A stretch of DNA of 64,000 nt, taken from assembly GCF_000496735.2 (NCBI RefSeq), contig NZ_AYLO01000008.1:34895-98894 (forward strand). The letters run 5' to 3'. Shown piece by piece: positions 8,578-15,778 of this stretch. Positions within the stretch are counted from its first letter, which is position 1, and each line of letters opens with the position of its first letter. Both the position numbers and the translations under genes were made by a program. This DNA is from Methyloglobulus morosus KoM1. Lineage in GTDB: Bacteria > Pseudomonadota > Gammaproteobacteria > Methylococcales > Methylomonadaceae. Under the pieces are notes generated by a model that worked only from the letters and a program-made list of their open reading frames with translations, was not told the origin of the DNA and made no database searches.

Positions 8578-8973
8578 ATGAAGACAGCCTTTATAACTAG
8601 CGCACTGTTATTTGCTTCACTATTTTTTTTAGTTATCGCAGAAGCCGAAACATCGACTGATGAATGGCAAAATACGACTATTTCTGATGCCACCATCAAG
8701 AAAATCCAGGAAGCAAAATATGAATATAAAAAATGTATCGGTGGGCAAATGCAAAAAACCGCTTTTTTGGACATGGACAGCCGCAAAGCAACGGAAGAGA
8801 TCTTAAAGCTGTGCGAACCCATGCTGGGTAAAATGCGCGAGACTTATTTGACAGAAAAAGTGCCTGCCGTGATGGCAGACCGCCATTTGCGGCAAGTCCG
8901 TATCCAGACGACCCGAAAATTGTTGCAGGAATTGATCTTTGCCCAAGCTGGCCGTGGCGCGGTAAAGCCATGA
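8578..8973 (+). CDS. Small secreted protein of the Hsp70/DUF2760 cluster
   Basis: 131-aa protein beginning MKTAFITSALLFASLFFLVIA, a classic Sec signal peptide with likely cleavage near AEA. The mature part is charged and helical with two cysteines (KKCIGG and KLCEPM), which could form a disulfide. ATG 8578 has AGAGGAAC just upstream, so it is preferred over the in-frame codon at 8557. Its stop overlaps the next gene by 4 bp (ATGA). No family recognised; context suggests the exported partner of the module. Confidence 0.7.
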   Translation: MKTAFITSALLFASLFFLVIAEAETSTDEWQNTTISDATIKKIQEAKYEYKKCIGGQMQKTAFLDMDSRKATEEILKLCEPMLGKMRETYLTEKVPAVMADRHLRQVRIQTTRKLLQELIFAQAGRGAVKP

Positions 8974-9650
8974 CTTACATAGAGTCGTTAATGAGCACTT
9001 TCTCCGTCGATTTGACCTTAAGGCCGACCACATTTGACTTATGGCATGTGTGTTTGGCAGGTACCGTGGTGGCCTTGATGGCTGTTATCATCTTGCTACT
9101 GTTGTTGCTATTATTTAGCCGAAGCATGAATAAGACAGTAGCCGAACCCGCGACCGTCCAACCGATTCACGCACAACCCGCTGAACCTACGGTAAAAATT
9201 ATCGAGAAAATCATAGAGGTCGAGAAAATCGTGCCTGCACCCACACCGGAACCTGTAGTCCTTAAGGAATACACGCCGGATGCCGCCCTGCAAGTATTGG
9301 GCTTGCTGCAAAAAGAAGCTCGGTTTATCGACTTCATCAAAGAAGACATCACGGCTTATAGTGATGCCGATATTGGTGTTGCCGCACGGGTGGTGCATGA
9401 TGGCTGCAATAAGGCCCTCAATGCGCACTTCAGCCTTGCGCCTATCCGAACAGAGCAGGAAGGCAGCAATATTACCGTACCTGTCGGTTTTGATGCCACG
9501 GCGATTCGGTTGACCGGCAATATTGTGGGCGCTGCACCGTTTACTGGCAGCCTAGTCCATAAAGGATGGCAAGTGACTGAGGTGCGCTTACCCAAACTCA
9601 CACAGGGACATAACCCCCATATTGTTGCGGCTGCAGAAATTGAATTGTAA
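8970..9650 (+). CDS. DUF2760 family membrane-anchored protein
   Basis: 226-aa protein. One transmembrane helix at about residues 27-49 (VALMAVIILLLLLLLF), then a Pro/Glu-rich linker with VEKIVPAPTPEPV, then the DUF2760 domain: LQVLGLLQKEARFIDFIKED, YSDADIGVAARVVHDGCNKAL, and a C-terminal segment. DUF2760 proteins commonly sit beside unusual Hsp70 genes, as here. Function undescribed; plausibly it recruits the Hsp70s to the inner membrane. The 50-bp gap to the first Hsp70 suggests one transcript. Confidence 0.82.
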   Translation: MTYIESLMSTFSVDLTLRPTTFDLWHVCLAGTVVALMAVIILLLLLLLFSRSMNKTVAEPATVQPIHAQPAEPTVKIIEKIIEVEKIVPAPTPEPVVLKEYTPDAALQVLGLLQKEARFIDFIKEDITAYSDADIGVAARVVHDGCNKALNAHFSLAPIRTEQEGSNITVPVGFDATAIRLTGNIVGAAPFTGSLVHKGWQVTEVRLPKLTQGHNPHIVAAAEIEL

Positions 9651-9700
9651 GCATCGCTATTTTCACGCAATTCCATTCAACTAACTGCCATAATTTATTG

Positions 9701-11545
9701 ATGAATAGCCCTATCAGACCAAAATATACCGTCGGAATTGATTTAGGCACCACGCATTGCGTCATGTCTTATGCCAATCTAGCCAGCTTGGAACAGGATG
9801 AATTTTCCCAACAAGTCATGCCGATTTCGCAGCTTACCGCTCCAGGCACGGTTGAAGACAAGCTCCAATTGCCTTCTTTTATCTATCAAGCCCATGCCGC
9901 AGAACTTGCCAATGGCGCAGCCATCCTGCCTTGGACGAGCAAACCGCAACATCTGGTGGGTGAAATTGCCCGTAATTTGGGCAGCAAGACCCCTATCCGC
10001 CTCGTGTCCAGTGCCAAAAGTTGGCTGTGCCATTCCGGTGTGGATTGCAAAGCGCCGATATTGCCGCCCGATGCGCCAGAAGAAGTCGAACGCATCTCGC
10101 CTTTTCAGGCGACCGTCGCTTATTTGCAGCACCTTAAAAGCGCGTGGCAGCACCAACACCCCGATGCGCCGCTGGAACAGCAAGATCTTGTGATTACCGT
10201 CCCCGCATCGTTTGATCCGGCAGCGCGGGAGCTCACTGTCGAAGCGGCTAGGACCGTTGGCTTAGGCCATGCCATCCTATTGGAAGAACCGCAAGCGGCA
10301 TTTTATAGCTGGATTGAAAAAAGCAGCAAAGATTGGCGCAAGCAAGTTCATGTTGGGGATGTTATTCTTGTCATTGACATCGGCGGCGGCACGACCGACT
10401 TATCCTTAATCGCCGTCACAGAGAATGACGGCAACCTGGAGTTGACCCGTGTGGCGATTGGCGACCATATCCTGCTCGGCGGGGATAACATGGATTTGGC
10501 ACTGGCCTATACCGTGAAAACCAAAGTCGAGACAGAAGAAAACCCTTTGCAACCCTGGCAATTTCAGGCATTGACCCATAGCTGCCGAGATGCGAAAGAA
10601 AAGCTGCTCAATAACATGACGATGGATGTCGCCCCCATAGTCATTGCGAATCGAGGTTCTTCGTTAATTGGCGGCACATTACGGACGGAACTGACCCGCG
10701 ATGAAGTCAATAGCACCTTAGTGGAAGGCTTTTTGCCTATTGTTGCCTCCAATGCAAGGCCTGCAACTCGAGCCCGGACTGGATTGAGGACATCCGGCTT
10801 ACCGTATGCCCAAGATGCGGGTATCACAAGGCATCTCGCCGCATTCCTGGCCAAACAGCAACATGCGACTGGCGAATTGGAAGGCATCAGGCTGACGGAA
10901 AATGCCACATTCATCCATCCTACCGCCGTGCTGTTTAATGGCGGCGTGTTAAAGGCGGATTCCTTGGCTGACCGGATGATGAGCGTATTGAATGGCTGGT
11001 TGCAAGCAGAGCAAGCCCCGCCAGCCAGGTTGTTGTCTGGAACTGACCTCGACCTAGCCGTTGCCAGGGGAGCGGCCTATTACGGCTTTGTCCGCAAAGG
11101 CAAGGGAGTACGCATTAAAGGTGGGGCTGCGGCTTCCTATTACGTCGGCATTGAGAGCGCCATGCCTTCTGTGCCGGGCATTCCGCCCGAAATCCAGGCC
11201 TTATGTATCGCTCCCTTTGGCATGGAAGAAGGCACACAGCAAGAGTTGCCCAATGAGGAATTCGGCTTAGTCATTGGTGAACCTGTCCGTTTCCGCTTTT
11301 TTGCATCGACCAGCCGTCGGTCAGACCGGGTTGGCACCCGCTTAAACCGCTGGAGTCGAGACGAACTGTCGGAACTGGCTGAAATCGAAATCACCTTAGC
11401 CAAAGAAGGCCGTAATGCCGGAGATATTGTTCCCGTCCATTTGTGCGCAGCCGTCACGGAAATCGGTACGCTCGAGCTGCAAGCCGTTTCCCAAAAAGAT
11501 AACTCCCGTTGGAAGATTGAATTTGATGTCAGGTCGGGGGAATAA
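9701..11545 (+). CDS. Hsp70 family protein (short, non-DnaK)
   Basis: 614-aa Hsp70-class ATPase. Phosphate-1 motif TVGIDLGTTHC, phosphate-2 VIDIGGGTTDLSLI and adenosine motif LFNGGVLKADS are intact, so ATP hydrolysis is expected. The substrate-binding part is shortened and lacks a DnaK-like lid and the EEVD-like tail. The ATG at 9701 is preferred over a TTG three bases earlier. It is followed 60 bp later by a longer paralogue, and both have the unusual ILLGGDN(M/I)DLALA nucleotide-domain signature. No dnaJ or grpE is nearby, which argues for a dedicated role. Confidence 0.88.
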   Translation: MNSPIRPKYTVGIDLGTTHCVMSYANLASLEQDEFSQQVMPISQLTAPGTVEDKLQLPSFIYQAHAAELANGAAILPWTSKPQHLVGEIARNLGSKTPIRLVSSAKSWLCHSGVDCKAPILPPDAPEEVERISPFQATVAYLQHLKSAWQHQHPDAPLEQQDLVITVPASFDPAARELTVEAARTVGLGHAILLEEPQAAFYSWIEKSSKDWRKQVHVGDVILVIDIGGGTTDLSLIAVTENDGNLELTRVAIGDHILLGGDNMDLALAYTVKTKVETEENPLQPWQFQALTHSCRDAKEKLLNNMTMDVAPIVIANRGSSLIGGTLRTELTRDEVNSTLVEGFLPIVASNARPATRARTGLRTSGLPYAQDAGITRHLAAFLAKQQHATGELEGIRLTENATFIHPTAVLFNGGVLKADSLADRMMSVLNGWLQAEQAPPARLLSGTDLDLAVARGAAYYGFVRKGKGVRIKGGAAASYYVGIESAMPSVPGIPPEIQALCIAPFGMEEGTQQELPNEEFGLVIGEPVRFRFFASTSRRSDRVGTRLNRWSRDELSELAEIEITLAKEGRNAGDIVPVHLCAAVTEIGTLELQAVSQKDNSRWKIEFDVRSGE

Positions 11546-11605
11546 GCATCAAACGCCAGCATCCAACCCTGTCCGCAAGCATATCCAAGCAGTTTTAAGC
11601 AACCC

Positions 11606-14440
11606 GTGCAAAACCCATCTCCCCAATACCACGTCGGCATCGACCTGGGTACGACGCATACGGCGGTTGCTTATGCCAAAATCGGCAACCCGCAAGACAT
11701 TCAGTTATTCCAGATTGAACAACTGACCGCGCCGGGGCAAGTCGAAGCGAAACCCTTATTGCCGTCAGCGCGTTATCATCCGGCTGAAAACGAACTTTCC
11801 GAAGCCGAACTTGTTTTTTCCCAATCCGGTACTCGCGCCGTTATCGGTGAAGCCGCACGATTGTTGGGCGCGAAGTCCAAAGGACGATTGGTGGCCAGCG
11901 CCAAAAGCTGGTTGTCACATCCCACGGTTGACCATCATGCCAAGATCCTGCCCTGGGGCAGTGATGAAAGCATCGAGAAAGTCTCCCCCATCGATGCCAG
12001 TGCCAGCTATCTCAGGCATATTTGCACCGTTTGGGGCATTCGCAACCCGAGCGCACCCTTAGAAAATCAGGATATTGTGATTACCGTGCCGGCTTCTTTT
12101 GATGAAGCCGCACGGTCGCTTACCCTGGAAGCGGCAAACCGGGCGGGACTCCATAGCGTCAGGCTGCTCGAAGAACCCCAGGCGGTCTGTTACGACTGGC
12201 TACGCCGCAACAGTGGCAATATCCATGACGCGCTGGAAAATATACAGTTGTTGTTAATCTGCGATGTAGGCGGCGGCACGACTGACCTGACATTAATAAA
12301 AGTCGAAAAACAGGGCCAAACTGATCCTAAGCTAACCCGGATTGCCGTGGGCGACCATATTTTACTGGGCGGGGACAACATTGATTTGGCCTTGGCGCAT
12401 CTCGTCGAAAGTCGCTTGCAGTCAGGCCAGTCCCGCTTGTCTACGGCGGATTTTTCCCAGTTGAATGAACAATGCCGCACCACCAAGGAACACTTGCTGG
12501 CAGAAAATGCACCAGGACAAGTGACCATTACCTTATTGGGCGGCGGTTCCAAATTGATTGGGGGATCGCGCTCCGCCATTTTGACTCAGGACGATGTCAA
12601 ACGAATCGCCTTGGACGGCTTCTTCCCGCTCACCCAATTAGACGACACGCCGGACAGGAAACGCAGCGGTGTGGTGGAATTTGGTTTGCCGTACGCGGCA
12701 GAACCGGCCATCAGCAAACATATCGCCGCGTTTTTAAACCTGCACAAACAGGCTGCCCTGGAGGCATTGCAAGGCACAGGGACAGTGCCCGATGCTATAT
12801 TACTGAACGGCGGCCTCTTCCGCAGCCAAACGATCACCCAAAGAATCCTTGACCTATGCAATGCCTGGAGCCCAAAGCCCTTGGTCTTGCTTGAGAACGA
12901 CTACCCTGATATTTCTGTGGCGTATGGCGCAGTCGGTTATGCCATCGCCAGACATGACAAAAAACTCAAAATTGGCGGCGGTGCGGCGCGGAGTTATTTT
13001 CTGTTGATCGACACAAACGTATCGGCGCAAGCACCGATCACGAAATCGCCTACGAAATACGGAGTTTGCGTACTGCCAAAAGGTAGTGCAGAAGGCAAGG
13101 AAATCATTTTGCATGACCGACGGTTCGCCTTACGTACCGGCACACCCGTCCGGTTTGACTTGGTTTCATATTCGGGCGACCAGCCCTTCAAACCTGGGGG
13201 CATTACCGAAATTAGCGATGACTTCCATGCCCTGCCCCCACTTGTCGTAGTGTTTGATACCGAGACCGCCCATCAAGACACCGAAACGGTTGTGCAGCTA
13301 GGTGTCACCCAAACCGATCTGGGAACGCTTAAAATTCAATGTATTGCAGTAAATGATGCGGCAAACCAGGAAACGGCAACACACCAAACGATAGGCGACA
13401 ACCCACAACAACGCTGGGATGTGGAATTCCAAATCAGGAAACAAGACACTATCAGGACTCCGGTCAATACCGAATTACCCCCCCAATTCAATGCGGCTAT
13501 CGAGCTAATACAGGCCGTATTCGGCACTAAATCCAAACAAATCAACCCAAACGCAGTCAAAAGCCTCCGTTCCGATCTCGAAAGGCTGCTGGGTGACCGC
13601 TCGCTATGGGATTCATCCTTGCTCAGGGCATTGTTTGCGGTATTGTGGGAAGGCCATAAATACCGTCGCCGTTCGGAACACCACGAACGGGTTTGGCTCA
13701 GCCTGATCGGCTTTTGCCTACGCCCTGGCTTTGGCTGCCCCCTGGACGACTGGCGCATCCAGCATCTGTGGCAACTCTATCCCCAAGGCATCCAATTCAT
13801 CAACAGCAATCAAAACTGGAGCGAATGGTGGACACTCTGGCGGCGCATAGCCGGCGGCTTGGATGTTGTTACCCAAGAACGGGTTTTTGCCGACATTGCT
13901 AACTATATTAACCCCGCTGCAAGTAGGCAACCTAACATTGCCAAGCAAGCCAAACAGCGCAGTTATGACGATATGGTCATGCTTGCCGCCGTTCTCGAAC
14001 GCTTGCCGATTGCCAAAAAAATAGGCCTTGGCGAATGGCTAATCAAACGATTGGGGAAAGCGAATGAATCCCAACAGACATGGTGGGCCGTAGGCCGCGT
14101 GGGTGCACGTATCCCTTTTTATGGCAATAGCCATGATGTGATTCCAACCGCTACCATTGAAAAATGGTTGGACCTCTTGTTAGTGCAAGACTGGAAAAAG
14201 AATCGGCAGGCAGCTTTCGCCGCCATGCTGTTAAGCCGTAAAAGTGGCGATCGTGTCCGTGATATTGATGAACCGCTCAGCATGAAAATTATTGATAAGC
14301 TAAAAATAAGCAAAACGCCTTATGCTTGGCTAGAAATGGTTGAGCATTATAAAAAGCTCGATGAAAAAGATGAGGCCCAGTTTTATGGAGAAGCGTTACC
14401 GCCGGGATTAAAACTGATACACACGAACTCCGCGTATTGA
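11606..14440 (+). CDS. Hsp70 family protein with C-terminal DUF3731 domain
   Basis: 944-aa protein. Residues 1-600 repeat the plan of the preceding Hsp70 (VGIDLGTTHTAVAY, ICDVGGGTTDLTLI, LLNGGLFRSQ). About 340 extra C-terminal residues correspond to DUF3731, with Trp-rich segments such as DDWRIQHLWQLYPQG and NWSEWWTLWRRIAGG. The start is GTG at 11606; no better ATG lies upstream. The two Hsp70s are clearly tandem paralogues that then diverged in the C-terminus. With DUF2760 this forms a recurrent bacterial module whose clients are unknown. Confidence 0.88.
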   Translation: MQNPSPQYHVGIDLGTTHTAVAYAKIGNPQDIQLFQIEQLTAPGQVEAKPLLPSARYHPAENELSEAELVFSQSGTRAVIGEAARLLGAKSKGRLVASAKSWLSHPTVDHHAKILPWGSDESIEKVSPIDASASYLRHICTVWGIRNPSAPLENQDIVITVPASFDEAARSLTLEAANRAGLHSVRLLEEPQAVCYDWLRRNSGNIHDALENIQLLLICDVGGGTTDLTLIKVEKQGQTDPKLTRIAVGDHILLGGDNIDLALAHLVESRLQSGQSRLSTADFSQLNEQCRTTKEHLLAENAPGQVTITLLGGGSKLIGGSRSAILTQDDVKRIALDGFFPLTQLDDTPDRKRSGVVEFGLPYAAEPAISKHIAAFLNLHKQAALEALQGTGTVPDAILLNGGLFRSQTITQRILDLCNAWSPKPLVLLENDYPDISVAYGAVGYAIARHDKKLKIGGGAARSYFLLIDTNVSAQAPITKSPTKYGVCVLPKGSAEGKEIILHDRRFALRTGTPVRFDLVSYSGDQPFKPGGITEISDDFHALPPLVVVFDTETAHQDTETVVQLGVTQTDLGTLKIQCIAVNDAANQETATHQTIGDNPQQRWDVEFQIRKQDTIRTPVNTELPPQFNAAIELIQAVFGTKSKQINPNAVKSLRSDLERLLGDRSLWDSSLLRALFAVLWEGHKYRRRSEHHERVWLSLIGFCLRPGFGCPLDDWRIQHLWQLYPQGIQFINSNQNWSEWWTLWRRIAGGLDVVTQERVFADIANYINPAASRQPNIAKQAKQRSYDDMVMLAAVLERLPIAKKIGLGEWLIKRLGKANESQQTWWAVGRVGARIPFYGNSHDVIPTATIEKWLDLLLVQDWKKNRQAAFAAMLLSRKSGDRVRDIDEPLSMKIIDKLKISKTPYAWLEMVEHYKKLDEKDEAQFYGEALPPGLKLIHTNSAY

Positions 14441-14851: not shown

Positions 14852-15778
14852 ATGTACACAAATTTTTTTGGCCTGACAAAAAAACCATTTTCGCTCAGCC
14901 CTGACCCCAGTTTTCTCTACTTAAGCCCCAATCATAAGAAAGCGCTGACTACCCTGAGATATGGTTTAGTAAGCCAAGCCAGTATAACCGTCATTACTGG
15001 AGAGATTGGCTCGGGCAAGACTACCTTAATCATGGCAGTTTTGGAAAAAGTCCAGAACCAATGCACTGTCGGCTTGATCACCAATACCCACAGTGCATTT
15101 GGCGACCTGTTGACCTGGGTTTTGGCTTCGTTCGACATCCCCCATGAGTCCAAAAATAAGGCCGAACGCTACCAGATTTTTACCCGATTCCTGGCCGAAG
15201 AACATAAAAAGCAACGTCGCGTCATTTTGATCGTCGATGAAGCTCAAAACATGGACATTGAAACATTGGAGGAGCTAAGGCTGCTCTCCAACATCAACGT
15301 AGCGGATCAAATCAAATTACAAATGATTTTGGTCGGACAACCTGAGCTGGTCGACAAACTGAACCAACCGGAACTCGTCCAATTTGCACAGCGTATCTCT
15401 ATTGAATACCATCTGAAACCGCTCAATTTCGAAGAAACGCGAAACTACATCGCACACCGTTTATTGATAGCCGGTGTCAATTCCACGATCTTTAATGAGG
15501 CGGCATTAGCGGCAATATATTTTTACACTGAAGGCGTGCCGCGCCTGATCAACAACATCTGTGACTTGGCAATGGTTTTTGCCTTTGCGGCGGAAACCAA
15601 AAAGATAGGCTGGAAAACCATTACCGAAGTGGTAAACGAAAGAAAAACAGGGGGTATCAGGCGTTTTAAAGGGACTATTTCGACAGAACCCACCTTGATG
15701 GATCGAGCAACAGAAGCCGAGCGTCTACGCAGGGATATTTTGGACAAGACCAAAATCGATATTTCAAGGTCGCTTTGA
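14852..15778 (+). CDS. ExeA/GspA-type AAA ATPase
   Basis: 308-aa P-loop ATPase starting MYTNFFGLTKKPFSLSPDP, the standard opening of ExeA/GspA and MshM relatives. Walker A GEIGSGKTT at 50-58, Walker B VILIVDEAQN at 124-133, sensor region QMILVGQPEL, and the C-terminal helical lid with EGVPRLINNICD. Relatives help place secretins or pili through the cell wall, or accompany exosortase loci. There is no GspB-like periplasmic domain at the end, and no secretin or exosortase gene nearby, so the partner system is elsewhere. Confidence 0.85.
   Translation: MYTNFFGLTKKPFSLSPDPSFLYLSPNHKKALTTLRYGLVSQASITVITGEIGSGKTTLIMAVLEKVQNQCTVGLITNTHSAFGDLLTWVLASFDIPHESKNKAERYQIFTRFLAEEHKKQRRVILIVDEAQNMDIETLEELRLLSNINVADQIKLQMILVGQPELVDKLNQPELVQFAQRISIEYHLKPLNFEETRNYIAHRLLIAGVNSTIFNEAALAAIYFYTEGVPRLINNICDLAMVFAFAAETKKIGWKTITEVVNERKTGGIRRFKGTISTEPTLMDRATEAERLRRDILDKTKIDISRSL

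Follow-up and report, generated by a model that had tools for sequence, protein, structure and literature searches.

Three types of prokaryotic Hsp70 are recognized, all of them thought to depend on J-proteins (PMC8215388). Here we describe a gene cluster encoding a divergent pair of Hsp70-related proteins in a window of 64,000 nucleotides from the 4.1 Mb genome of Methyloglobulus morosus KoM1; the window is the whole stretch of DNA that was analyzed, and all coordinates are positions in it unless a locus is named. The cluster encodes an exported protein with a pair of cysteines (SEC), a membrane protein of the DUF2760 family, and two Hsp70 paralogs, Hsp70-1 and Hsp70-2, the second of which carries an additional DUF3731 domain. 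The DUF2760, Hsp70-1 and Hsp70-2/DUF3731 genes are referred to below as the module. It is widespread, mostly chromosomal and uncharacterized, and we regard it as a further variation on the Hsp70 theme, not as a system of an altogether new type.

Reasoning by analogy, the closest functional analog of the module is HscC of Escherichia coli with its tail-anchored J-proteins DjlB and DjlC, which are proposed to act at the plasma membrane, on membrane proteins, with no dependence on GrpE (PMC8215388). As in the module, a specialized Hsp70 is there genetically linked to small inner-membrane partners. However, HscC keeps R167, N170, T173, V218, the linker aspartate and the beta part of the substrate-binding domain (SBD-beta), which the module pair does not show as a set; its partners are J-proteins, whereas the DUF2760 protein matches PF10816 only and has no J-domain by sequence; and the module has instead two paralogous ATPases, one of them with a predicted solenoid. 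HscA is likewise a dedicated Hsp70, and its nucleotide-binding domain (NBD) is the best NCBIfam match of both module ATPases, but HscA uses the J-protein HscB and has an SBD and a lid, and a tree of NBDs splits the module pair from the DnaK, HscA and HscC types with support 1.0. The eukaryotic Hsp70-Hsp110 system also combines two paralogous Hsp70-fold proteins, one of them enlarged; nothing in the module sequences points to an Hsp110-type exchange-factor relation, and DUF3731 is predicted to be a solenoid, not an extended SBD. Bacterial Hsp70 homologs with regulatory roles are also known, namely StkA and SglK of Myxococcus xanthus (PMC4319316), which are described without a DUF2760 or DUF3731 partner. 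The module proteins are clear members of PF10816 (DUF2760) and PF12531 (DUF3731, “DNA-K related protein”), families which are catalogued only; no paper using these names or their Pfam accessions was found in the literature searched.

The two Hsp70 ATPases

The pair (65 sequences) was aligned with 37 canonical Hsp70s (24 DnaK, 8 HscA and 5 HscC) drawn from the same kinds of genomes. The ATPase residues D8, K70, E171, D194, T199 and D201 are intact in both paralogs, bar single-sequence alignment gaps at D8; the two paralogous Hsp70s with intact ATPase motifs, described in an earlier note on this DNA, are conserved in these residues throughout the family. R167, N170, T173, V218 and the linker residue D393 are invariant in 37/37 canonical Hsp70s. 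In the pair, N170 is replaced by E and V218 by R (65/65 each), T173 by Q in nearly all sequences and otherwise by L or K, and R167 is lost in Hsp70-1; the hydrophobic LLLDV linker has given way to R/K-I-x-G-G-x-A, with D393 present in 0/65. The J-domain contact of DnaK consists of R167 and the docked linker (PMC5519331).

Neither paralog has the helical lid (SBD-alpha): Hsp70-1 ends after a C-terminal domain of 148 amino acids (aa), and Hsp70-2 continues into the solenoid. The C-terminal domains of the two proteins (~148 aa) match each other by hhalign (Table 1). Compared with 33 canonical SBD-beta sequences they reach a profile probability of <1%, where the controls to DnaK gave 99.8% for HscC and 100% for HscA, and no Pfam family or PDB sequence match was found for them. 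The earlier note had the lids missing, which is correct, but the loss is wider. As read from the alignments, the motor has been kept and the coupling parts have been replaced; “lidless DnaK” understates the change, because the J-docking site, the linker and a detectable SBD-beta are gone too. Loss of the docking site makes it unlikely, as far as residues can tell, that the pair works with general DnaJ alone, an objection the note had raised against itself. The genome encodes eight J-domain proteins, all on other contigs and none on the contig of the module, and DnaK and HscA are also encoded elsewhere. A third weak cluster of PF00012 matches in the genome (C83) was discarded as MreB by sequence.

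Distribution of the three core families

By their profile across genomes, DUF2760, Hsp70-1 and Hsp70-2/DUF3731 are a real unit with a nearly all-or-none distribution, because the same genomes carry them even where the genes are unlinked. In the phylum sample, DUF3731 was found in 27/398 genomes and DUF2760 in 28/398, with 27 shared, which come from about seven families and are not 27 independent events; the only mismatch is one fragmented assembly. The class sample of 274 genomes gave 11 with DUF3731 and 10 with DUF2760, all 10 shared, and in the odd genome the contig stops within Hsp70-1, before DUF2760 would come. Among 61 relatives, DUF3731 occurs in 49 and DUF2760 in 51, and the sets are nested. 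Hsp70-2 lies 0.7–2.9 Mb away from DUF2760 in five genomes (G030, G033, G034, G057 and G060), and the families still co-occur. At most of the 80 Methylococcales Hsp70-2 loci fetched, DUF2760 is outside the fetched stretch, some of these stretches being short. All plasmid replicons matching Hsp70-2 (P0004; 11/11) carry DUF2760 too, and the copies on Burkholderia, Caballeronia and Bradyrhizobium plasmids hold all parts of the module. Thus, of the four genes for which the earlier note had suggested phylogenetic profiling, the three core families co-occur and the profile of SEC departs from theirs (see below).

Several individual loci have features of their own. Locus L109 of Methylotuvimicrobium buryatense 5G, a laboratory methanotroph, contains all four genes. 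One genome (G045) holds two module copies (L203, L204). In family f184 (L193, L194), an ABC-F type ATPase gene precedes DUF2760 by 3–21 bp, and the two apparently form one operon. On plasmid pCB82_1 of Bradyrhizobium sp. CB82 (L259), typed as conjugative, the trio lies just upstream of groES-groEL; on pTs485 of Candidatus Thiodictyon syntrophicum (L260), DUF2760 and Hsp70-1 without DUF3731 stand near anti-phage and TIR-domain genes. Outside Methylococcales, no flanking genes common to many families were seen among the matches listed. In 27/80 loci (L047–L126; for example, L059:12818–13171 and L108:12791–13138), Hsp70-2 is followed within about 100 bp by a conserved, small, polytopic membrane protein of ~117 aa, the distance being ≤20 bp in 26/27. 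This protein has no Pfam family, and none was seen behind Hsp70-2 in the window; its position is in keeping with a membrane site of the module.

The DUF2760 protein and the DUF3731 domain

The conserved domain of DUF2760 has 21 invariant columns across several families and two classes. By the positive-inside rule, the C-terminus is inside (C-in) for 47/47 Methylococcales DUF2760 proteins that bear a transmembrane (TM) helix, and the conserved domain and C-terminal tail are predicted to be cytoplasmic. The tail, APAEVEL, is nearly invariant and lies outside regular secondary structure in the AlphaFold2 (AF2) model; we propose that it docks on a partner. Foldseek gave no fold match for the protein (lowest E 0.09), and it lacks a sequence relative in the PDB. 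The co-occurrence of the families when unlinked, the predicted C-in topology in 47/47 and the loss of the J-docking site all speak for the dedicated, membrane-linked Hsp70 pair without a DnaJ or GrpE of its own that the earlier note had described.

The AF2 model of DUF3731 (57 homologs) is all-helical, with 16 helices, a predicted local distance difference test score (pLDDT) of 88.7 and a predicted template modeling score (pTM) of 0.87. Compared with designed armadillo repeats it reached a VIA-align Z of up to ~15 at a root-mean-square deviation of 5–6, with many unrelated solenoids tied, and no Foldseek match had an E below 0.001. The domain is therefore predicted to be ARM/HEAT-like only, at a level of likeness expected of helical repeats generally. 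Its alignment has 23 invariant columns, many of them charged, which suggests a conserved binding surface.

A proposed ATP-driven complex at the inner membrane

The reading that we prefer, and hold with moderate confidence, is that DUF2760, Hsp70-1 and Hsp70-2/DUF3731 together make up a single ATP-driven complex at the inner membrane, on its cytoplasmic side; such a machine would probably be separate from the normal Hsp70s and independent of J-proteins. DUF2760 would anchor Hsp70-1 and activate it in place of a J-protein, acting via its cytoplasmic domain or via the APAEVEL tail, and the two related ATPases would work as a pair. Hsp70-2 would use its ARM/HEAT-like solenoid as an arm that binds a client or partner, and cycles of ATP would toggle the complex between states so as to remodel or hold a membrane-located protein. 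In Methylococcales, SEC, a putative periplasmic disulfide-type protein, would be an accessory that has joined the operon. A more far-reaching version, which we offer only tentatively, is that bacteria would have, beside DnaK, HscA and HscC, a fourth class of Hsp70 machine, in which the membrane protein DUF2760 replaces the J-protein, the two ATPases are obligately paired and have a new C-terminal domain, one of them holds the client by its ARM-like solenoid, and SEC provides periplasmic input in methanotrophs.

Several points weigh against the preferred reading. The physical complex, its ATPase activity and the handling of a client are all predictions. R167 is kept in 45/58 Hsp70-2 sequences, given which some J-protein contact with Hsp70-2 may be possible, and divergence may hide an SBD-beta in the C-terminal domain. 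Because many DUF2760 proteins from outside Methylococcales have no TM helix, with a possible amphipathic N-terminus only, a tight membrane tether appears not to be universal, and the strength of attachment appears to vary. The Thiodictyon plasmid, the only replicon of that genome examined, has DUF2760-Hsp70-1 without DUF3731, and the sampled genomes are related, so that counts of co-occurrence are not counts of independent events.

Set against the three prokaryotic Hsp70 types counted in review (PMC8215388), a widespread pair that kept the motor but shed the substrate domain, the linker and the J-site would reveal a different means of coupling this motor to work, at the membrane. With a three-gene unit of nearly all-or-none profile, the question of what drives a J-protein-free Hsp70 becomes testable in tractable hosts, which include methanotrophs of industrial interest; if the Vibrio cholerae operon considered below is the same module, its quorum-sensing control offers a physiological entry point.

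Alternative explanations

The pair might instead be regulatory or structural actin-fold ATPases and not chaperones, DUF2760 being a membrane receptor and the nucleotide state of the pair an output that switches a surface or lifestyle process. The lack of a detectable SBD-beta or lid and the scaffold-like solenoid would suit such a role, for which StkA and SglK, the Hsp70 homologs that regulate exopolysaccharide in Myxococcus (PMC4319316), provide a precedent. The V. cholerae operon VC1373-1375, annotated as DnaK-related, is probably the same module, an identification based on annotation; the published HapR site, sought in the compared loci to confirm it, was not found there. The quorum regulator HapR activates the promoter of this operon directly, as seen both in vivo and in vitro (PMC10328515), and the operon is repressed in biofilms (PMC9201469). 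In a study of polymyxin B, VC1374 appears among the transcripts that distinguish a vc1639 sensor-kinase mutant from the wild type (PMC5636140). Control of expression, however, is not function, and the trio adjoining groESL on the Bradyrhizobium plasmid hints at proteostasis; we consider a regulatory role of this kind rather unlikely.

A system dedicated to the envelope, with SEC as sensor or client and DUF2760 relaying a periplasmic signal to the Hsp70s, seems to us less probable still. Within Methylococcales the tie is close: SEC was found in 52/61 relatives, including 51/51 Methylococcales genomes with DUF2760, which disposes of the concern, voiced in the earlier note, that the secreted gene might be absent from all other copies, and it lies directly upstream of DUF2760 at all but one of the Methylococcales loci examined. 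Residues Y50, C53, R69, C79 and R108 are invariant in family alignments of 43 and 20 sequences, both cysteines being kept in 43/43, and SEC is a predicted lipoprotein in 9/48 loci checked. SEC and DUF2760 share a single continuous reading frame in three genomes, all from the same genus (L011:784–1875, L012:760–1875 and L025:1495–2583), which would give an N-out, C-in topology; but this is one lineage, and a good Shine-Dalgarno-like stretch precedes the internal ATG, making separate translation possible. Against an envelope-dedicated system, SEC was not detected at DUF2760 loci outside Methylococcales; it occurs without the chaperones in G036 and is unlinked in G046, both Methylococcales; and 12 other gammaproteobacterial genomes of the class sample have SEC without DUF3731 or DUF2760. 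Of the SEC loci without the trio, those that were read lie mostly near an rppH-type Nudix gene, malate dehydrogenase (mdh) and citrate synthase.

Judged from these distributions, SEC appears to be an old exported protein recruited to the operon in Methylococcales, a lineage-specific accessory and not a core partner, because it was not detected with the module in other lineages and occurs independently near rppH. The recurrence of the trio with a secreted member, as the earlier note had it, therefore holds inside Methylococcales only. The step from a secreted member to an envelope task does not extend to the whole module, because SEC is undetected at the non-Methylococcales loci and independent in the 12 genomes; this part of the note is weakened, as its dedicated pair is strengthened, and an envelope task for the module is possible. 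SEC has no Pfam family and no PDB relative. Beside its distant homologs in non-Methylococcales Gammaproteobacteria (L239–L250), a second small exported protein is often encoded directly upstream.

That these are ordinary divergent Hsp70 paralogs served by general DnaJ/CbpA and GrpE is very improbable: the intact ATPase motifs, the eight J-domain proteins of the genome and the R167 kept in most Hsp70-2 would allow it, but N170, T173, V218, D393 and the LLLDV linker, kept in the 37 canonical Hsp70s, HscC included, are replaced throughout the pair, no SBD-beta is detectable, and the strict tie to DUF2760 would be left unexplained.

Two further candidates were rejected. A link to methane oxidation fails as a general explanation, as PmoA-type genes occur in families f7 and f8, which lack the module, and no PmoA was detected in G040, G047 and G051, which possess it. 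For anti-phage defense there were only weak PADLOC matches, to PDC-M61B and in the NBD, for which a common ATPase fold accounts; a single plasmid copy is situated among defense genes, but the module is mostly chromosomal.

Layout of the locus

All four open reading frames (ORFs) sit where the earlier note had placed them; SEC has a signal peptide and two cysteines and overlaps DUF2760 by 4 bp (ATGA) (Table 1).

Table 1. Features of the module and of the adjoining SEC gene in the window.
Feature	Position	Strand	Basis or remark
Exported Cys-pair protein (SEC), 131 aa	8578..8973	+	signal peptide, then predicted helical domain
DUF2760 protein, 226 aa	8970..9650	+	predicted: TM helix at the N-terminus, then an unstructured linker and a cytoplasmic domain
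DUF2760 long membrane helix, residues 15-54	9012..9131	+	DSSP on AF2 model; hydropathy
DUF2760 conserved cytoplasmic domain, residues 103-226	9276..9647	+	PF10816, alignment, AF2 model
DUF2760 C-terminal tail AAAEIEL (consensus APAEVEL-COOH)	9627..9647	+	alignment and model; candidate docking peptide
Hsp70-1, 614 aa	9701..11545	+	PF00012
Hsp70-1 NBD	9701..11098	+	intact ATPase residues; changed residues at the J-docking site
Gly-rich linker (VRIKGGAAASYY) and C-terminal domain of Hsp70-1, the domain specific to the pair	11099..11542	+	not detectably SBD-beta
Hsp70-2, 944 aa, GTG start	11606..14440	+	PF00012 and PF12531
Hsp70-2 NBD	11606..12955	+	PF00012 and alignments
Linker (LKIGGGAARSYF) and C-terminal domain of Hsp70-2, the domain being a homolog of the one in Hsp70-1	12956..13447	+	hhalign 99.9%, E=5e-32
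DUF3731 domain, predicted as an ARM/HEAT-like solenoid made entirely of helices (16)	13445..14437	+	PF12531 and AF2 model

In Pfam searches, DUF2760 matched PF10816 with E=1.3e-53 (180.5 bits) and Hsp70-2 matched PF12531 with E=4e-102 (341.8 bits), both above the gathering cut-off of 25, and the matches to PF00012 had E=7e-18 for Hsp70-1, in the NBD only, and E=3e-16 for Hsp70-2. The extra domain of Hsp70-2, earlier put at ~340 aa, measures ~330 aa, and the Pfam match spans 248 of these. DUF2760 and Hsp70-1 are as a rule translationally coupled, with a gap of -4 bp in 47/73 distinct loci; in the window the gap is 50 bp. A scan for promoters and terminators gave counts no higher than in shuffled sequence. 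The next gene on the same strand encodes an AAA ATPase (AAA_22; 14852–15775) and is probably unrelated to the module, since ~410 bp separate the two.

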